This document shows positions 5,644-30,731 of a stretch of DNA of 31,798 nt, in pieces (position 1 is the first letter of the stretch; each line of letters begins with the position of its first letter). Origin of the DNA: a virus. A program made the position numbers and the translations under genes. The stretch covers positions 1 through 31,798 of IMG/VR virus record IMGVR_UViG_3300045120_000446. One strand, written 5' to 3'. The notes under the pieces were generated by a model. The model was not told where the DNA came from. It did not search any database and saw only the letters and a program-made list of their open reading frames with translations.

Positions 5644-5672
5644 AATCTACACCCCATCGCGCAGGTTGTCAA
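5644..5672 (-). promoter_or_regulatory. Sigma70-type promoter with CTGCGCG spacer motif
   Basis: On the minus strand TTGACA, a 17-nt spacer and TAGATT lie in perfect register 54 bases before the 83-aa gene. The spacer carries CTGCGCG 8 nt before the -10, a one-base variant of the CTACGCG seen in the other promoters. The -35 flank (24 nt, 5663-5686) is identical to that of the promoter at 30703. Confidence 0.85.
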
Positions 5673-6979: not shown

Positions 6980-7299
6980 CCGAGCGCCTCCTCGATGAGC
7001 GCCAGGCCCTGGCCCGACTCGACCATCTCGCGCGTGAAGCGCAGCACGCGCCAGCCCATCGCGGCGGCGTGCGAGAACTTCTGGGCGTCGGCCTCGATGC
7101 CCCGGCCGGTCGTATGGCGGCCCCCGCTCCAGGTCCCGCCGTCTACTTCCACGGCGACCATGCTAGACGGCCAGGCAAGGTCGAACCGCCAGCGGCGGGT
7201 CGGGTGGAAGCGGTACTCGGCGATGGGCACGGGGCAAGTACCCGCCGCGCGGAGTTGCCAGAGGAGGAGGTCGACGATGCTTGACAATCTACGCGCCAC
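6976..7299 (-). CDS. Vsr/DUF559-like endonuclease
   Basis: A 107-aa protein. RRWRFDLAW (D40), VAVEVDGGTW (E51-V-D53) and GRHTTGRGIEADAQK (H62, D71) follow the order of active-site residues in the small endonucleases related to Vsr and DUF559, a branch of the PD-(D/E)XK superfamily. WRVLRFTREMV is the usual closing strand and helix. Such phage enzymes are proposed to resolve or nick DNA. The first possible start is GTG at 7299, with TTG at 7287 as alternative. Both overlap the plus-strand promoter at 7281-7309, so transcription of this gene and of the HTH operon may interfere. Confidence 0.75.
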   Translation of the reverse strand: MARRLSSIVDLLLWQLRAAGTCPVPIAEYRFHPTRRWRFDLAWPSSMVAVEVDGGTWSGGRHTTGRGIEADAQKFSHAAAMGWRVLRFTREMVESGQGLALIEEALG

Positions 7300-7309
7300 C
7301 GACTACGAT
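7281..7309 (+). promoter_or_regulatory. Promoter of the HTH operon, CTACGCG class
   Basis: TTGACA, 17 nt, TACGAT, with CTACGCG two bases after the -35 and 8 nt before the -10. The -10 ends 39 bases before the ATG of the HTH gene. It lies over the 5' end of the divergent nuclease gene. Confidence 0.85.
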
Positions 7310-10078: not shown

Positions 10079-10194
10079 CTCGCGGTCGCGTGCCAGTAGC
10101 GGGGGTCACCCCAGCGCTGGTTCGTCAGGACATAGTCGAAGCCGTAGCGCTGCCAGGGCCATATCCGGCCCCCGCAGGAGGTGCAGCGCCTCAC
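10066..10194 (-). CDS. Tiny zinc-ribbon-like protein
   Basis: A 42-aa product from a GTG in a GTGA overlap with the recT stop (VRRCTSCGGRIWPWQRYGF...). C4 and C7 form a CxxC, and H35 and C40 near the end (YWHATARC) could complete a zinc site. It is too short for the open-frame listing by size but fits the coupling pattern. Function unknown. Confidence 0.6.
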   Translation of the reverse strand: MRRCTSCGGRIWPWQRYGFDYVLTNQRWGDPRYWHATARCRP

Positions 10195-11210
10195 TTCTTC
10201 GGCCAGGTCTGGACGACCTCGTCGTCGACGATTTGTCGATGGACGCCCTTGTGGTCCGGGTCCTCCTCGGAGCAGACGGCCCCGTCGATGGGCGAGCGGG
10301 ACGCGCACGTCTCCGGGTCGCGCTCGGCCGCCACGACGGCCGCTGGCGCCGGGTTCTCCTCGATGACGTCGGGTTCTGCCTCCTGGGCCTGGGCGGCCGT
10401 CTCCGTGGCTCTGGCGCGCTCTGGAGCGATGGCCGCGACCAGGCGCTCGCGCCGCTCGACCGACGGGTGCCGGTTCGCCGGTTCGTCCCAGGCCGTCTCG
10501 ACCGCGTCCTCGCGGGCCAGGGCGTCGTACATCTCGGGCGTCGTGGCGCGCAACTTCAGGGCGTGCCGGACGGCCGTCTTGATGACCATCTCGTCGTACC
10601 AGTCGGCCCAGGGGCCGCGCTTCCCGCCGCCGCGCGTCGAGTTGCGGACCTTGTTGATGTCCTCGATGGTCTGGTAGGTGATGGCCTGCGGCGTGGCCGG
10701 GTCCTTGAAATGGAGGACGGTGTAGACGCCCTGGTAGTTGCCGCGCATCGAGCCGTCCCGGACGGGGATGAAGCGGACGTGCGGTTCGCTCCCCATCACC
10801 AGGTCGAGGTGGTCGCCCTCGTGGACGATGTTGACCTCGATTTGCCGGACGTCCCCCCGGAGGGCCATCTTGAACAGGCCCCGGTAGTCGCGGATGAGGA
10901 CGGCCTCCAGGACGCCCGACGAGTTCCGGAAGGGGACCAGGTGCGCCCCGCCCGCCGGACCCGTCGGCTCCAGCCCGTCCTGGGCCGCTTCGAGGATGGC
11001 CCGCAGGAGCGACTCGCGGGTGCAATCCTGGAGTTCGGGGTTCTTGCTCACGGCCAGCACGACGACCCGCTTGAAGCGGTCGACGCTCATGCGCGAGCCG
11101 AGGACGTCCATCAGGGCGTCCGTCCGCGCCTCCAGGTCGGCGGCCAGTTGCTCGGACTTCTGGCGCCGCTCCTCGGCTACGGTGATACGAGTCTCCGTCT
11201 CGGCGGTCAT
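10191..11210 (-). CDS. recT: RecT-family single-strand annealing protein
   Basis: The protein is 339 aa from an ATG preceded by the GAGGAACAG leader at 11214-11222. Residues about 20-250 follow the RecT core: DRFKRVVVLAVSKNPELQDCTRESLLRAILEAAQDGLEP, HLVPFRN, AVLIRDYRGLFKMALR, and WYDEMVIKTAVRHALKL. RecT binds single-stranded DNA and anneals complementary strands during phage recombination and replication. The C-terminal 90 residues are Ala/Glu/Pro-rich and acidic, with a short CASRSPIDGAVCSEEDPDHKG end that could bind metal. The YqaJ-type exonuclease two genes upstream is the expected partner, which makes the strand that RecT anneals. Confidence 0.92.
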   Translation of the reverse strand: MTAETETRITVAEERRQKSEQLAADLEARTDALMDVLGSRMSVDRFKRVVVLAVSKNPELQDCTRESLLRAILEAAQDGLEPTGPAGGAHLVPFRNSSGVLEAVLIRDYRGLFKMALRGDVRQIEVNIVHEGDHLDLVMGSEPHVRFIPVRDGSMRGNYQGVYTVLHFKDPATPQAITYQTIEDINKVRNSTRGGGKRGPWADWYDEMVIKTAVRHALKLRATTPEMYDALAREDAVETAWDEPANRHPSVERRERLVAAIAPERARATETAAQAQEAEPDVIEENPAPAAVVAAERDPETCASRSPIDGAVCSEEDPDHKGVHRQIVDDEVVQTWPKK

Positions 11211-11470
11211 CGTCTGTTCCTCTCTGCCGCCCAGTTCGCGGCCTCTTCCTTCGCGGCTAGGGTGGCCTTGCGCTTCGCCAGGGCCTTCGCCTTCTTCGTT
11301 GCCAGGAGTCGCTCGACGTACGCCTGGTCGGTGTAGGCCATGCGCTCGGTCGGCTCCGCGGTCGGGTCGTTCGTCCCGCAGAGGACGATGCCGAAGCGCT
11401 CGTCGAGCGGGAGGTAGCCGCCCTTCAGCGGGCGGGGTTTTCCACAATGTCCACAGTAGTAGGTCGTCAC
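11207..11470 (-). CDS. Small protein with N-terminal zinc finger
   Basis: An 87-aa product starting at a GTG in a GTGA overlap with the exonuclease. The N-terminus YYCGHCGKPRP has a CxxC pair, and C31 (IVLCGTND) may add a ligand. The C-terminus is a long Lys/Ala-rich helix (ATKKAKALAKRKATLAAKEEAANW), which could bind nucleic acid. It sits between the exonuclease and the annealing protein and is coupled to both, so a helper role in recombination is plausible, but that is inference. Confidence 0.65.
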   Translation of the reverse strand: MTTYYCGHCGKPRPLKGGYLPLDERFGIVLCGTNDPTAEPTERMAYTDQAYVERLLATKKAKALAKRKATLAAKEEAANWAAERNRR

Positions 11471-12543
11471 GGGCGCTCCTCGTCGAAGGTCGCCCGGAAC
11501 GGCCGGTCGGTGCGGGTCAGGGTGTGGACCGACGCGATGGCATCGAGGTCCCGCAGGCCCGCCTGGATGGTCGAGGGGAGGTCCTGGAACTCGGGCGAGT
11601 CGACGGCCGGGGCCGTCTCCTCGACGAGGGTCCGGTAGGCGGCGGCGACCGCCTCCCAGGCGACGACGTCGACGTCGTGCGCCCGCCAGGTGATGCGCCC
11701 GCCGGGGAACGTCATCCCCGCGTGGGCACCGATGGCGTCCTGGAGGCGTTGCTTGACCCGCCCCTCGACGTCCTGGTAGTTCTTGACCAGGGCCTTCGCG
11801 GCGCGGTACTCGGCGGCCAGCGCCGCCTGCTCCGGGGTCGCGGTGATGACGTCGTCCTCGTCGCGCGGGTAGCGCAACTTCAGGTAGGCCGCGGCCCCGT
11901 CGGAGCCGTCGACCGGCGGCGGCGTCTTCGTCCGGACGTAGGCGTACCACCACTCCTCCAGTTCGGTCACCAGGTCGGCGATGATGGCGTCGTCGCGGGG
12001 GATGACGTAGTCGCGCCGCTGGTAGCCGCCGATGAGGACGGCCACGATGGCCTCCCCGTAGCCGGTCACGGCGAGTTGCTCGTAGACCTGGACGCGGACC
12101 CGCGCCGGGACGCCCTCCGGTCCGCCTGCCCGTCCGTCGGCGTACTCGCCCGCCTCCCCGTAGCCCTGCCCGTAGGGCGAGGTCTTGACCTCGACGATAC
12201 GCATCGGCTTGCGGAGCGTCCGCCGGTCGATGCGGGCGGTGATGAGCGGGTGCCCCTTCATCCGGAGGGTCCGCTGGTAGCGCTCGCGGAGGCCGCGGGT
12301 GTTGTTGACCTGGGCGAGGACGCGGTTCAACCGGATGCCGGTCCGCTCCTCGAAGTCGGCCGCGACGACGTCTTCGAGGATGCGACCCCAGCGCATCATC
12401 GGCGAGTCGCCGCCGCGGTGGATGCCGTGGACCTTCGCGTTCCAGACGTCGAACTGGGAGAGGAAGGTGTCGAGGCCCAGGATGGCGGCCGCCTCCGATG
12501 AGCCGATGCCGTCCTGGGGCGGGGGTGAGCCGGTGGGCGTCAT
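11467..12543 (-). CDS. YqaJ-type exonuclease (PD-(D/E)XK), partner of RecT
   Basis: A 358-aa protein with the YqaJ/lambda-exonuclease layout. IGSSEAAAILGLD opens the domain, and MRWGRILEDVV supplies E57. PLITARIDRR supplies D106, and RIVEVKTS gives E118 and K120 of the ExK motif. A Gln/Tyr motif follows in RVQVYEQLAV. The enzyme degrades one strand of duplex DNA from ends and leaves a single strand for RecT. Residues 230-358 form a helical C-terminal part of unknown role with a coiled-coil-like run (AALAAEYRAAKALVKNY). Gene order with recT is the standard phage recombination pair. Confidence 0.9.
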   Translation of the reverse strand: MTPTGSPPPQDGIGSSEAAAILGLDTFLSQFDVWNAKVHGIHRGGDSPMMRWGRILEDVVAADFEERTGIRLNRVLAQVNNTRGLRERYQRTLRMKGHPLITARIDRRTLRKPMRIVEVKTSPYGQGYGEAGEYADGRAGGPEGVPARVRVQVYEQLAVTGYGEAIVAVLIGGYQRRDYVIPRDDAIIADLVTELEEWWYAYVRTKTPPPVDGSDGAAAYLKLRYPRDEDDVITATPEQAALAAEYRAAKALVKNYQDVEGRVKQRLQDAIGAHAGMTFPGGRITWRAHDVDVVAWEAVAAAYRTLVEETAPAVDSPEFQDLPSTIQAGLRDLDAIASVHTLTRTDRPFRATFDEERP

Positions 12544-13515: not shown

Positions 13516-13818
13516 CTACCCCTTGCTCGGCCGGAGGGTGCCGCGATAGACGGCGAAGACCTGGCGCTTCGTAACCTCGACGAATCGGACCTCGCCGTCG
13601 GGCGCGTAGCGGTACTCCGCCCGGTCGCCGATGATGGCGGCGATGGGGCCGGTCACGTCCTGGACCGTCGCGTTGAGGAGGGGGCCGTGGTCGTAGGCGA
13701 GGCCCTCGATGGCCTCCTCGACAGACTCCGCGCCGGTCGCCTGACCGGACCCGATGTAGACCCTCGATAGCCCGTGGTCGGTGACGTTGTCGACCCGGAT
13801 GACCTTCGTTGCTGGCAT
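13516..13818 (-). CDS. First gene of the early operon, unknown protein
   Basis: A 100-aa protein (MPATKVIRVDNVTDHGLSRVYIG) with a mixed alpha/beta pattern, one helix around SVEEAIEGLAYDHG, and C-terminal strands EYRYAPDGEVRFVEV. It has the GAGGAACAG leader at 13822-13830 and the minus promoter 13863-13891, so it is likely made early and abundantly. No domain is recognised. Confidence 0.7.
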   Translation of the reverse strand: MPATKVIRVDNVTDHGLSRVYIGSGQATGAESVEEAIEGLAYDHGPLLNATVQDVTGPIAAIIGDRAEYRYAPDGEVRFVEVTKRQVFAVYRGTLRPSKG

Positions 13819-13862
13819 GGTCTGTTCCTCGTTTCAGCGCCCGACATGGGTCGCCTAGTACG

Positions 13863-13891
13863 AAGATACTCGGCCGATTTCGGGCTGTCAA
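13863..13891 (-). promoter_or_regulatory. Promoter of the early replication operon
   Basis: On the minus strand TTGACA, 17 nt, TATCTT, 45 bases before the first start codon. It lacks the CTACGCG spacer motif of the other promoters, so it may be controlled differently. It faces away from the promoter at 13944. Confidence 0.75.
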
Positions 13892-13943
13892 TCCCTCCCG
13901 ATGGAGTGCATATTCCGCCGAAAAATATTCATGCCGAAAGTAC

Positions 13944-13974
13944 TTGACAAAATCTACGCGGTATGCATTAGAGG
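13944..13974 (+). promoter_or_regulatory. Divergent promoter reading into the structured intergenic region
   Basis: TTGACA at 13944 is followed by CTACGCG at 13954-13960 and, 8 nt later, TAGAGG, which keeps the CTACGCG-to--10 distance of the other promoters but with a 19-nt spacer. The -10 is weak. No protein-coding gene follows on this strand for several kilobases, so its product would be an RNA. Confidence 0.6.
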
Positions 13975-13978
13975 CCGA

Positions 13979-14106
13979 AAAGGTCTAGAACGGCCCAGGT
14001 GACCCGTTTATCTACGCGGTAGCGTGATTTCCTTATTTGGGGGGTCTGAAGCCGTCCTGGGCCGTTCTAGGGCCTCACGGGCCGAATCGGCAGAATCGGC
14101 CTTCTT
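13979..14106 (+). ncRNA. Candidate structured small RNA (or replication origin element)
   Basis: A perfect 15-bp inverted repeat (13985-13999 with 14056-14070; arms CTAGAACGGCCCAGG and its complement) encloses 56 nt. That loop contains the palindrome CTACGCGGTAG (14012-14022). Next comes GGCCGA/TCGGCC (14080-14101) followed by TTCTT, which resembles an intrinsic terminator. A promoter lies just upstream. No frame of note is present. The layout of promoter, long stem and terminator fits a small RNA of about 125 nt. The same hairpins could instead end the late operon on the other strand or mark an origin. Confidence 0.5.
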
Positions 14107-14122
14107 GCATATCCGAGGGCCG

Positions 14123-14335
14123 TCAATGCCCGTTTCCGTTCCTCGCGCGGCCCGCGATGTAGCCCGCCAGGAGGGCGACCATGATGCCGATGAGGCGCCC
14201 GATGGCCTCCGCGCCCTTCGACGTGTCCTGGTCCGGGGACCGGAGTTCGATGACCAGGACCGTCGCCGCGGTGGCGAGGACGACGATGGCGACGACGATG
14301 GCGAAGATGAGGGCGACCCAGTCGGCGGGCTTCAT
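14123..14335 (-). CDS. Small two-span membrane protein, holin-like
   Basis: A 70-aa protein with spans at about residues 7-29 (ALIFAIVVAIVVLATAATVLVI) and 45-62 (IGRLIGIMVALLAGYIAG), joined by a short acidic loop, and a basic C-terminus (RARNGNGH). Size and hairpin topology fit class II holins. It ends the late structural operon, far from both lytic enzymes. With the membrane protein at 3993-4292 the phage has two holin-like genes. One may be a holin and the other an antiholin or a virion protein; sequence cannot tell. Confidence 0.65.
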   Translation of the reverse strand: MKPADWVALIFAIVVAIVVLATAATVLVIELRSPDQDTSKGAEAIGRLIGIMVALLAGYIAGRARNGNGH

Positions 14336-14736
14336 CCGACGATGATGACCTGGGAGCCGCCTTCGGAGTTCGAGCGACGGAGGACCTCGACGGCCTCCTG
14401 GGTCACGCGGACCGTTCCGGCGTCTCCGGCCGTCAGGACCTCGACGGCCTCCTGGGTCACGCGCGCGTCCCCGCTGGTCGGACTAACGAGGACCTCGATG
14501 GCGACCTGGGTGACGCGCATCGGCGAGGGGACGATGGTCGGGGCATAGACCGCCCCAGCCCCGTCGAGCAGGCCGAGGGTGACGGTCTGGGTGTAGATGA
14601 GCGCCGGGGCGTAGAGCGTCGCCGAGCCATCGAGCAGGCCGAGGACGATGGTCTGGACGCCGCCCGTGTCGGGGCCGACCAGCCCACCTCCAGGGCCGAC
14701 CAGTCCACCGGCTGGCCCGACCTTCGCGACAGCCAT
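14332..14736 (-). CDS. Small repeat protein with two LLDG..LYAPT units and three RVTQ.AVEVL units
   Basis: A 134-aa protein of repeats only. The N-terminus has a Gly/Pro run with GGLVGP repeated. Two units match the LLDA..LYAPT repeats of the 822-aa protein (TIVLGLLDGSATLYAPAL, VTLGLLDGAGAVYAPTI). Three units of RVTQxAxEVL follow, the last two coded by nearly identical DNA (about 29 bases repeated near 14382 and 14438). Both motifs occur in uncharacterised phage proteins. It lies after fibre genes in the late operon and is probably a virion or fibre-tip component (inference). Confidence 0.75.
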   Translation of the reverse strand: MAVAKVGPAGGLVGPGGGLVGPDTGGVQTIVLGLLDGSATLYAPALIYTQTVTLGLLDGAGAVYAPTIVPSPMRVTQVAIEVLVSPTSGDARVTQEAVEVLTAGDAGTVRVTQEAVEVLRRSNSEGGSQVIIVG

Positions 14737-20148: not shown

Positions 20149-22842
20149 TCACCTATACGCGGGCTTCTTCGGGGACAGAACGCCCAGGTCGGCCAGGCGC
20201 CGGAGTTGTCCGGAGACTTCGAGCGGGTCGCGCGCCCGGACCAGCCCGTCGACGTGGGTCTGGATGTTGTAGGTATCGCCGCCGTGGGCGACGCTGGATG
20301 CCCCCAGAGCGCCAGGAATCGACGGAGACGCCCGCATCGCGAGCGAGGTGCCCGATACCGCACCCGAGAGCGACGGGGCCGCTACGCCCGAAATCGTCTG
20401 CGCCGCTCGCCGGACGTTCTTGCTCTGGGAGAGGAGGCCGTCGACCCAGGCCGAGACGGTGTTCGCGCCCCAGGTGTCGATATGGTGGAGGGGCGAGGCG
20501 GGACCAGGCGGCGAGTCCGCCCGCCAGATGGTCTGGGCGGCCTTGCTGACGGCGATGGCGGCGTTGCGGGTCGCGATGACCTTCGCGCGGATGCCGTCGG
20601 CGAACGCCTGCGCGGTGTTCTTGCCGAACGTCTCCGCCGCGCCGATGCTCCCCGACAGCGGGTTCTTGACGGCGTTCGCCACGCCCTTCGCCGCCGTCGT
20701 GACCTTCGGCGTGGCGGAGGTGATGCCGCCCGCGTAGGCGGTCGTGGTCGCGGCGCCGCCGGTCGCGGCGCCCTTCTGGAGGTCCGTCATCTGAGCCGTG
20801 AGGACCCGCTTCCACTCGTCGATGGCGGCCCGCTGCTCGGGCGTCCCGTTCGCGTAGGCGTCGGCGACCGACTTCGAGGCGAGCGCCGCCTGGATGGCCG
20901 AGATGCGCTGGGCGTCGGTGCCGTAGGTCGTCAGGTCGGTCAACTGGACGAACAGTTGCTTCGACAGTTCGGTCCGCCGGATAGTGGCCTCGCGGATTTG
21001 CTTCTTCGTCGAGTCCTTGTCCTTGATGATGCGCGTCTGCTCCGCGATGTCGCGCTTCGTCTGGGCCAGTTCCTGGCCCTTCAAGAAGGGGTCGAAGATG
21101 GCGTCGGCTGCCGACTGGGCGGCCCCGCCGACCTCGCCCCGGAGGCCCTGGATGGCGGAGAGAATCTTGCCCGCCGCCGTCTCGACCTTGAGCGCCGTGA
21201 AGTCGGCCGAGTCGCCGATGCCGTCCTCGATGTCCTGGCCCGCATCGTCGGCGGCGTCGCCGATGCGGTCGTCCTTCAGGTCGCCGACGACGTGGTCGAC
21301 CATGCCCGTCACCGACGAGGTCGTCGAGGCCGCACGAGCGGCGACCGCGGCGTTGACCTGGTCGAGTTCTTGCTGGATGCCCTTCTGGCCGAAGACGCCC
21401 GAGAGGCCCGTCTGCAACTGCCCGAGCGGGCTGGCGACGGCCTCGGAGAGGTTCTTCTGGAGGTCCTTCAGTTGCTGGTCGGAGAGGTCCTTCGTGAAGC
21501 GCTCGAAGTCCTCCGACATCTTCGTCTCGATGACCGAGAGGTTTTGCTTCTGGGCTTCGTACATCCCGGCCGCCCCGGCCGCGATGATGCCGCCCACGAT
21601 GCCGCCCGACATGAGGGCGCCGAGTTTCGTGCCCGACAACTTCGCCGCCGCCCCGACGGGGCCAGACGGCATCCCCTCGATGGCCGTCGCGACCGTCTTG
21701 CTGGCGGCGAGTTCGATGCCCAGGGCGGCCGCAATCTTGACGCCCATCTGCGTCCCGACCGTTTTCAGGACGGGCGCCAGGAGGCCGATGGCGCCGCCCA
21801 GGGCGCCGCCCACGACGCGGGTCAACTGCGGCCCGAAGGCGCTCGCGACCATCAGCACCGGGCCGAACTTCTGGCCGAACTCGGCCAGGGCGCCGCCCGC
21901 CTGGTGCATGAGGAGGGTGAACTTGTGGCCCCAGCCCGACTCGACCGCGTCGGCCGCCTTCTCGGTCGCGCCCGCGGCCTCGCTCATGTCGACCTTGTAG
22001 TCGTCGAGGTTCGCGCCCTGGAGGGCGTTCGCCAGTTTCGCGCCCGCCCGCGCGCCGAAGAGTTTCGCCGCCTTCTCCGCCCGCAGGAACGGGTCCTCGG
22101 TGTTCGAGATGTCGGTGATGAGGGCCTGGAGTTCCTCCGGCGACTTGACCTTCGTCAGGGACTTCGCGAAGGCGGCCGACGCGGTGTTCGCGTCGATGCC
22201 CTTCGCCCCGAAGAGGTTCAGGAGGGCGATGCCGTCGTCGATTTGGAGGTTCGCCGCCTGCATCGCGGGGGCCAGGGCGGCGAGCGTCTTCTCGTTGTCG
22301 GCGATGGTGCCGCCGTACTCCTGGTGACTGACGATGAGTTTGTCCATCACCTCCTGGGCGTCGGCCGCGGTCAGGCCCCAGGAGTCGAGGATGTCGTCGA
22401 ACTGGGAGGCGGCCTCGGCCGCGTCCTGGCCCGTCGCCGTGGCGAACTTCAGGAAGGCGTCGGTCGTCTCGGTCGCCGCGTCGCCCGTCAGGCCGAGGTC
22501 GGTGGTCACGACCGAGAGGGCGCGCGAGATGTCGGAGAAGCCCTGGATGTTGTTCTGGTAGAGGCCCGCGATGGCGTGCTGCGCCTTCGCCGCCTCGTCG
22601 GCCGTCATGCCCGTGTCGGCCTGGAGTTGCCGGGTCGCGGCGTCCAGTTCGTTCGCCCCCGAGAGGGCGGCCCCGACGGCGAAGCCGACGCCCGCCCCGA
22701 CCGCCGTCCGGAGGCCCCGGCCGATGGTCAGGCCGAACTGTTGCCCGAACGTCTGACCGGCCTTCTGGCCCGCCTTCGTGACGTCCTGCTGAAGCATCGT
22801 CCCGTCGCCCCGGAGGGCGAGGAACAGGTCGCCGATGTTCAT
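20149..22842 (-). CDS. Tape measure protein
   Basis: An 897-aa protein. It sets tail length and enters the host during DNA ejection. It starts MNIGDLFLALRGDGTMLQQDVTKAGQKAG, typical of this family. An Ala-rich helical stretch follows with a TP901-type core (TGMTADEAAKAQHAIAGLYQ...FLKFATATGQDAAEAASQFDD...VSHQEYGGTIADNEKTLAAL). A central part holds hydrophobic segments around residues 330-350 and 410-430 (GGIVGGIIAAGAAGMY), and a long coiled-coil region comes after. At about 1.5 angstrom per residue it implies a tail near 130 nm. The open frame in another register over the same DNA is a shadow. The start overlaps the chaperone stop (ATGA). Confidence 0.92.
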   Translation of the reverse strand: MNIGDLFLALRGDGTMLQQDVTKAGQKAGQTFGQQFGLTIGRGLRTAVGAGVGFAVGAALSGANELDAATRQLQADTGMTADEAAKAQHAIAGLYQNNIQGFSDISRALSVVTTDLGLTGDAATETTDAFLKFATATGQDAAEAASQFDDILDSWGLTAADAQEVMDKLIVSHQEYGGTIADNEKTLAALAPAMQAANLQIDDGIALLNLFGAKGIDANTASAAFAKSLTKVKSPEELQALITDISNTEDPFLRAEKAAKLFGARAGAKLANALQGANLDDYKVDMSEAAGATEKAADAVESGWGHKFTLLMHQAGGALAEFGQKFGPVLMVASAFGPQLTRVVGGALGGAIGLLAPVLKTVGTQMGVKIAAALGIELAASKTVATAIEGMPSGPVGAAAKLSGTKLGALMSGGIVGGIIAAGAAGMYEAQKQNLSVIETKMSEDFERFTKDLSDQQLKDLQKNLSEAVASPLGQLQTGLSGVFGQKGIQQELDQVNAAVAARAASTTSSVTGMVDHVVGDLKDDRIGDAADDAGQDIEDGIGDSADFTALKVETAAGKILSAIQGLRGEVGGAAQSAADAIFDPFLKGQELAQTKRDIAEQTRIIKDKDSTKKQIREATIRRTELSKQLFVQLTDLTTYGTDAQRISAIQAALASKSVADAYANGTPEQRAAIDEWKRVLTAQMTDLQKGAATGGAATTTAYAGGITSATPKVTTAAKGVANAVKNPLSGSIGAAETFGKNTAQAFADGIRAKVIATRNAAIAVSKAAQTIWRADSPPGPASPLHHIDTWGANTVSAWVDGLLSQSKNVRRAAQTISGVAAPSLSGAVSGTSLAMRASPSIPGALGASSVAHGGDTYNIQTHVDGLVRARDPLEVSGQLRRLADLGVLSPKKPAYR

Positions 22843-26327: not shown

Positions 26328-27590
26328 CTAGGACCCCTGGACGAAGCCTTCAACCTTGCAGAACGCGGACGGCCGGTAGACCGCGAGCGCGAGGCGCTCC
26401 TCGGCCCGGACGGCCACCTTGTTCTTGATGAAGTAGTCCTCGTTCTCGGTCGAGATGGCGATGGAGAGGCCGCTCCGCCGGAAGACCTGGGCGTGCGGGG
26501 TGAAGGCCCCGACGAGCGCGGTGTTCTGGAGGGCGTTCGTGGTCACCCGGACCTGGAGGCCCCAGGGGCGGACGTCCACGGGACCGACGGCCGGACCCAG
26601 GAGGTAGTTGCCCGTGGTGTCCTTCGACGTCCGGAGGTCGAAGTAGTCGCGGGGATGGATGACCATCGCCGTCGGCTCCGCGAAGGCGTCGGTCTGAATC
26701 TCGGTGATGGCGGCCAGGATGGAGTCGATGGTCGACATCCCGACGCCCGTTACCGTCTGGACGCCGGTCCGGTTGTAGAGGCCCTGGATGGTGATGCCCG
26801 TCCCCGGACCCTGGAGGAGGTTGAACTCCTCGATGCTCTTGACGAAGAACGCCAGGCGGCCGCGGAGGTACGCCTCGAACGCCGGGACGTCTTCGAGCAT
26901 CTCGTCGGTGACCGGGAGCCAGGTCGCAATCTTCCGGACGTTGTCCTGGCGGAGGGAGAAGTCGATGGCCGACTCAGGCTTCGCGGCGCCCTCGTCGACG
27001 AACGCGGCGGCGTTCGTGGTGGTCGTCTCCTGGAAATAGGAGATGACCTGGGCCGTCGTGGTGCCCTGAAGCATCAGGTCGGCGACGGTCCGCTCCTCCT
27101 GGGGCGGGGGCTGGATGGCCGCCTGGCGGTCCTCCAGGGGCGTCAGGTCGGCGCTCGTCGAGAGCGTCTTGATGGCGAGGTCGCCCAGTTCCCCGCGGAA
27201 GCCGTGGAACGACTTGATGCCGTGCGACTCCAGCGCCGAGAGGAGCATCGAGCCGACCGATTTGTGGCCCGCCATCAGGACCTCGTCCTGGGGGCTGCGG
27301 GCGCGGTCGACTTGCTCGTCGTCGCGGGGGTCGATTTGCCGGGGGCCTGGTCCGCGCATCGCCTTGATGGCGTCGGCGTTCGCCCTCTCGGCGATGACCA
27401 GGTCCTGGAGCGGCTCGATGGCGTCGACCAGGGCCGACAGTTCGTCGTTGCTGGTCTTGATGGACGTGGCGAGTTCGTCACGCTTCGCCGGGTCCGTCTC
27501 GGTGTTCGCCTGCGCGAAGAGTCCGGCGAGCGCCGTCCGCTTGACGGCAATCTCCTCCTTCTTCGCGAAGTACTCGGTCTGAAGACTCAC
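26328..27590 (-). CDS. Major capsid protein (HK97 fold)
   Basis: A 420-aa protein. Residues 1-85 are a helical delta domain (MSLQTEYFAKKEEIAVKRTAL...KTSNDELSALVDAIEPL), the scaffold usually removed by the protease. The rest has the HK97 pattern. It includes a conserved TTTNAAAFVDEGAAKPESAIDFSLRQDNVRKIATWLPVTDEMLEDVPAFEAYLRGRLAFFVKSIEEFNLLQGPGTG stretch (E-loop, spine helix), IDSILAAITEIQTD and PTAMVIHPRDYFDLRTSKDT. It also has an axial-type end VRAEERLALAVYRPSAFCKV. It follows the protease gene directly. Confidence 0.93.
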   Translation of the reverse strand: MSLQTEYFAKKEEIAVKRTALAGLFAQANTETDPAKRDELATSIKTSNDELSALVDAIEPLQDLVIAERANADAIKAMRGPGPRQIDPRDDEQVDRARSPQDEVLMAGHKSVGSMLLSALESHGIKSFHGFRGELGDLAIKTLSTSADLTPLEDRQAAIQPPPQEERTVADLMLQGTTTAQVISYFQETTTTNAAAFVDEGAAKPESAIDFSLRQDNVRKIATWLPVTDEMLEDVPAFEAYLRGRLAFFVKSIEEFNLLQGPGTGITIQGLYNRTGVQTVTGVGMSTIDSILAAITEIQTDAFAEPTAMVIHPRDYFDLRTSKDTTGNYLLGPAVGPVDVRPWGLQVRVTTNALQNTALVGAFTPHAQVFRRSGLSIAISTENEDYFIKNKVAVRAEERLALAVYRPSAFCKVEGFVQGS

Positions 27591-29831: not shown

Positions 29832-29860
29832 AATCTAGCCGATGGCGCGTAGGTTGTCAA
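29832..29860 (-). promoter_or_regulatory. Promoter, CTACGCG class, left-reading
   Basis: On the minus strand TTGACA, AC, CTACGCG, 8 nt, TAGATT. This is the closest match to the family consensus. It drives the four genes at 29.76-28.66 kb and faces away from the promoter at 29929. Confidence 0.88.
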
Positions 29861-29928: not shown

Positions 29929-29957
29929 TTGACACCTCGCGCGGTATCGGTTAGATT
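29929..29957 (+). promoter_or_regulatory. Promoter, right-reading, divergent partner
   Basis: TTGACA, a 17-nt spacer with TCGCGCG 8 nt before the -10, and TAGATT. It lies 38 bases upstream of the ATG at 29996. The 68 bases between the two -35 boxes are AT-richer and contain ATATTCCGCC, also present between the divergent promoters at 13.9 kb. Confidence 0.88.
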
Positions 29958-30702: not shown

Positions 30703-30731
30703 TTGACAACCTACGCGACACCGAGTACATT
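30703..30731 (+). promoter_or_regulatory. Promoter, CTACGCG class
   Basis: TTGACA, AC, CTACGCG, 8 nt, TACATT. The 24 bases 30689-30712 are identical to those before the minus promoter at 5644-5672. It is 36 bases upstream of the ATG at 30768. Confidence 0.88.

Follow-up and report, generated by a model that had tools for sequence, protein, structure and literature searches.

The 15-bp inverted repeat located between the late genes of this uncultured phage and its early operon is a shared element and not an accident: it belongs to a rare family of ~85-nt elements carried in phage genomes, mostly GC-rich and related to phages of actinobacteria. Its copies have a conserved spacing and one conserved orientation, and two relatives of one carrier phage, L023 (L numbers are our handles for loci and contigs), lack it at the matching site. 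Moreover, the changes seen in the stem suggest that it is kept as RNA on the plus strand of the window, by which we mean the whole stretch of DNA analysed here, a virus record of 31.8 kb (31,798 nucleotides) with a GC content of 0.70.

The main genes of the window are on the minus strand. The closest matches of its major capsid protein, at 32-38% identity, are from phages of Arthrobacter, Gordonia, Curtobacterium, and Xanthomonas, and a search for close relatives, meant to allow a covariation test at the same site, found none and matched distant structural-gene relatives only. The gap at 13819-14122 separates the end of the tail block from the first early gene; both flanking genes are on the minus strand, and the supposed plus-strand RNA would therefore be antisense. 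The genes that frame this region are as follows:

10191-11447, minus strand: RecT-like gene
11467-12543, minus strand: RecE-like gene
13516-13818, minus strand: first early gene (100 aa), with RecE and RecT downstream
14123-14335, minus strand: closing gene of the tail/late block (70 aa with a hydrophobic stretch at its N terminus)
20149-22842, minus strand: tape measure gene
26328-27590, minus strand: major capsid gene

As the original prediction had proposed, this gap is an AT-richer island between the late and early operons, with a GC content of 0.55 at 13801-14100 vs ~0.70 elsewhere. On the plus strand, for which it had stated that there is no coding frame, the sole ORF there, at 14024-14548, lies opposite minus-strand genes and is probably spurious. 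The structures predicted within the island were all recovered, namely the perfect inverted repeat (13985-13999 and 14056-14070) around a 56-nt loop, the GGCCGA (14080-14085)/TCGGCC (14096-14101) hairpin followed by TTCTT, and a loop palindrome containing the promoter-spacer motif: CTACGCGGTAG is within the loop, and the 12-mer ATCTACGCGGTA occurs exactly at 13952 and 14010. On the plus strand, the features are:

13952-13963, plus strand: ATCTACGCGGTA, promoter-spacer motif, copy 1 (exact repeat)
13971-13976, plus strand: GAGGCC, which may lengthen the stem outward past an 8-nt bulge (fold and direct reading)
13985-13999, plus strand: left arm of the inverted repeat, CTAGAACGGCCCAGG, identical in L023, L028, and L026
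14000-14055, plus strand: 56-nt loop, related by homology to that of L023 when read in this orientation
14010-14021, plus strand: ATCTACGCGGTA, copy 2, within the loop (exact repeat)
14056-14070, plus strand: right arm, CCTGGGCCGTTCTAG, whose minus-strand reading, CTAGAACGGCCCAGGACGG, is a fuller form of the motif
14071-14076, plus strand: GGCCTC, partner of 13971-13976 (fold and direct reading)
14080-14106, plus strand: hairpin GGCCGA..TCGGCC with TTCTT, weakly terminator-like (fold and direct reading)

No longer perfect repeat of this type than the 15-bp one occurs in the window, where the runners-up have 13 bp with a 6-nt loop and 12 bp with a 66-nt loop, and by our estimate ~0.04 such repeats per window would be expected from base composition alone. 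The RNA fold of the hairpin region has a z score of about -6 on either strand. The GGCCGA/TCGGCC hairpin is not among the terminators listed by a consensus scan of the window, and no U-tract of the kind that marks an intrinsic terminator directly follows the 15-bp stem on either strand.

The plus-strand promoter that had been proposed ahead of the stem could be sustained in part. A perfect TTGACA stands at 13944, in a variant of a promoter family of this phage; no consensus -10 was found 16-18 nt past it (3/6 at best), and the promoter scan lists no promoter on the plus strand. The family itself was found from all TTGACA sites and consists of TTGACA, a 17-nt spacer starting with ACCTACGCG or similar, and TAGATT. 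The 13944 site aligns to it only when two spacer bases are removed, its -10 (TAGAGG) is poor, and it ends ~10 nt upstream of the stem; both minus-strand sites near it (13891 and 13950) have a better consensus. These promoters are:

5644-5672, minus strand: family promoter, TTGACA-ACCTACGCG-N8-TAGATT or TACATT
13863-13891, minus strand: promoter TTGACA-17-TATCTT into the early operon (promoter scan)
13922-13950, minus strand: promoter-like site TTGTCA-17-TATTTT, also toward the early operon (promoter scan)
13944-13974, plus strand: variant family promoter, TTGACA, 19-nt spacer with ATCTACGCGG, TAGAGG
29832-29860, minus strand: family promoter, same pattern as at 5644-5672
29929-29957, plus strand: family promoter, same pattern
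30703-30731, plus strand: family promoter, same pattern

Two of the family promoters are divergent, 69 bp apart, and stand ahead of rightward small genes at the right end. A weaker member at 7281-7309 (plus strand), TTGACA-atctacgcgccaccgac-TACGAT, is antisense to coding sequence.

A scan of 2.9 million viral contigs for the exact 15-mer arm gave 19 loci. In L023 and L025, which are contigs of one phage, both arms were found 71 bp apart, exactly the spacing of the window with its 56-nt loop, and in L028 both arms, carrying two changes and forming 13/15 pairs, were found 70 bp apart with a 55-nt loop. The window, L023, and L028 carry one copy each; L023, itself a tiny phage, and L028 are distantly related to tiny Microbacterium phages, and BLASTN of the window against either of them detected no similarity outside the element. 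Furthermore, L026 holds a half copy, made of the left arm and an interior that it shares, offset for offset and in one orientation, with L023 and L028, and L031 holds two copies, each with one degenerate arm. The element can be recognised by a conserved arm, CTAGAACGGCCCAGGAC, to which its 3' arm is complementary, and by CCG at positions 20-22. Patterns wider than the exact arm yielded no further copies, and the element was absent by pattern from 84,980 bacterial genomes and was also absent from annotated phages and plasmids. Rfam covariance models gave no match at gathering score (the best, CRISPR-DR56 with an E of 4.6, lies outside the element), and a literature search for the arm sequence found no relevant paper. 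Single-arm matches were used only as leads: by our own estimate their bacterial counts do not exceed chance, and several of the phage ones are in coding sequence.

A covariance model built from the three full copies was run on 396 genomes of the phylum of an actinobacterial MAG, among which that MAG (L068) gave the one strong match, at 41.9 bits; background matches reach 25-27 bits in ~750 genomes of two phyla. The L068 copy is treated as a probable member only, because it overlaps an apparent signal-peptide coding region. No second copy was found in the MAG's own lineage by a class-level search, and 395 genomes of the class of G001 held no further copy.

Several other hairpins and repeats were observed during these searches. 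Four unrelated phage contigs (L020 11473, L028 5073, L029 1478, and L033 1258) have tandem CTAGAAC(G) units 10-11 bp ahead of the arm motif, and the arm itself is readable as two 10-bp CTAGAAC(G)-type units. The same 10-bp units make up the hairpin CTGGAACGGCCCAGAACGGCCGTTCTGAGCCGTTCCAG at L074 1501-1538, between divergent genes of an actinobacterial genome; this 38-nt hairpin (CTGGAACGGC..) was rejected as a member for its near lack of a loop and its divergent-promoter setting, despite two compensatory pairs. A different perfect 16-bp inverted repeat with a loop of 43, containing CTAGAACGTCGTCCCAGGA, occurs at L048 1072-1146, within the 3' portion of a winged-helix-like ORF, and hairpins of 12-17 bp are present shortly past the major capsid gene in small phages (L045 3390, L046 3049, L050 1728, L051 2231, and L052 3713).

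Homology between copies extends into their interiors. The window and L023 loops align in one orientation (z 4.2, 0/2000 shuffles), and the left half is common to L026, L023, and L028 in one orientation (p <= 0.0004), the reverse-orientation control for these three being not significant save for a borderline L023/L026 value (p 0.05). The interior of the longer L031 copy is also related to that of L026, in the same orientation (p 0.0015). This conserved orientation corresponds to the plus strand in the window.

The genomic settings of the copies are diverse. In L023 the element is 5 nt past the point where a 76-aa hydrophobic ORF stops, and the tape measure start follows it by 21 nt. The nearest relatives with this region, L049 and L047, are without the element at that site, and the adjacent gene is different as well: the tape measure gene directly follows the neck gene in L049, and a collagen-repeat gene separates the two in L047. 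Since both relatives lack it there, the hydrophobic ORF and the element of L023 look like an insertion, and the element looks horizontally acquired. The L028 copy has the portal gene on one side and, on the other, a small ORF close to an HNH gene, and the L068 and L026 copies are inside apparent coding sequence. Relative to gene direction, the element is antisense in the window and L028, and sense in L023, L026, L031, and L068.

Such a distribution raises the question of a palindromic mobile DNA unit, MITE-like, whose terminal inverted repeats would be recognised by a transposase or recombinase from elsewhere and which would have no RNA function. The absence from two L023 relatives, the unrelated positions in both orientations relative to genes, the terminal inverted repeats themselves, with arms far better conserved than interiors, and a length fixed at 85-86 bp in three phages are all in line with it, as are the changes that affect one side without compensation, in the arms of L028 and just inside the stem of the window; yet the interior is conserved in one orientation, the stem changes of L031 comprise four G-U pairs on one strand, and no autonomous partner, target-site duplication, or multicopy genome was found, save for the two degenerate L031 copies. 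We regard this explanation as rather unlikely.

The stem changes bear directly on whether RNA or DNA is conserved. Compensatory changes in relatives had been suggested as a check, and the outcome was divided. In the three full phage copies, covariation is absent from the stem, and their four deviations are one-sided and unpaired, two of them just inside the 15-bp stem; those of L028, and one just inside the window stem, are uncompensated. Pairing-preserving changes did occur in L031 and L068. The L031 stem forms 14/15 pairs on the conserved strand (10 Watson-Crick and 4 G-U), against 5 mismatches when the opposite strand is read. In L068 the stem is paired throughout (15/15), two of its pairs being G-U and one the product of a compensatory change. 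Taken together, L068 and L031 show one compensatory and six G-U changes valid on one strand, a strand that is supported independently of pairing for L031 but not for L068. By our own count, these changes favour RNA at a suggestive level (p ~0.03). Interior folds differ between copies, and the pairing that flanks the stem is made by differing sequences: by direct reading, CCAGCAAGGCCC pairs with GGGCCTTGCTGG in L031, and GAGGCC with GGCCTC in the window.

A role at transcript boundaries was also considered, in which the hairpin would be a terminator, an insulator, or an RNase III-type processing site between transcription units. The L023 copy 5 nt past a stop codon, the L028 copy that overlaps one, and the position just upstream of the next unit's promoter in the window and L031 would suit such a role, for which a stem very stable on both strands is apt; however, a terminator or RNase III site needs neither an exact sequence nor a conserved interior, and the stem has a 56-nt loop, lacks a U-tract after it, and is unlisted by the terminator scan. 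On this basis we judge a boundary hairpin unlikely.

A DNA site bound by an initiator or regulator, at the arms or at 10-11-bp half units (CYAGRACGGC), or a replication origin, is in our view decidedly unlikely. The strand-specific G-U pairs are not predicted by it, the window showed one arm pair only and no initiator or iteron array, and single-arm matches are partly chance. These points are set against the AT-richer island, the operator-like 12-mer present twice, CTAGAAC(G) units that follow each other in tandem at 10-11 bp (L020, L028, L029, and L033), a DnaA-box-like TTATCCACA nearby in L022, L029, and L033, and the occurrence of copies, or of a related motif, within the 3' portion of winged-helix-like ORFs (L026 and L048).

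The explanation that we tentatively prefer, while granting it somewhat less than an even chance, is a horizontally shared hairpin element that may be kept partly as RNA and that in the window is possibly made as an RNA of ~125 nt. Here the variant promoter would start transcription ~5-10 nt before the stem, and the weak hairpin would stop it near 14106, releasing a structured RNA of about that length. The original prediction of an independent RNA gene thus gains from the strand preference and from an element common to other phages, and loses in that promoter and terminator, a family-variant site before the stem and a weak terminator-like hairpin after it, are weak and not common to relatives: no own promoter precedes the L023 or L026 copies. 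Since the promoter-spacer motif recurs in the loop, a regulator of the early promoters might be bound by the RNA, or else by the DNA. More broadly, and with rather low confidence, the copies may represent an undescribed family of ~85-nt phage-borne structured RNAs, with the invariant 5' arm CTAGAACGGCCCAGGAC and a strand-specific stem, that would act in trans during infection, spread between unrelated phages and other actinobacterial mobile elements, and come under the control of any promoter available.

Because annotation tracks genes, non-coding elements passing from one phage to an unrelated one are easily overlooked. The present one is recognisable by its 15-17-bp arm and fixed 56-nt spacing, which makes its spread and function directly testable, and the promoter family with its conserved spacer motif, a copy of which is in the hairpin loop, suggests a concrete regulatory link.

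Known systems offer partial parallels. The mycobacteriophage mobile elements MPME1 and MPME2 are small, have inverted repeats, and insert in actinophage genomes (PMC3029335). The window element resembles them as a small element with inverted repeats in a phage genome, and identity was rejected on size, MPME1 being 439 bp vs 86 bp here. The ESAS of Cluster K and EF are 17-bp imperfect repeats with a 4-13 bp spacer, present in many copies and tied to start sites (PMC3203893, PMC7302621); they are likewise conserved inverted repeats in actinophage intergenic gaps, and identity was rejected for an element that is single copy, has a 56-nt spacer, and is not start-associated. Finally, small non-coding RNAs have been demonstrated by RNA-seq in mycobacteriophages D29, L5, and StarStuff (PMC5712189) and in Rhodococcus phage WC1 (PMC10986025), their function being unknown (PMC5712189, PMC10986025). 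The putative RNA of the window shares with those detected transcripts an intergenic location, the lack of a long ORF, and a phage promoter nearby, and its element matched no phage of the collection searched.
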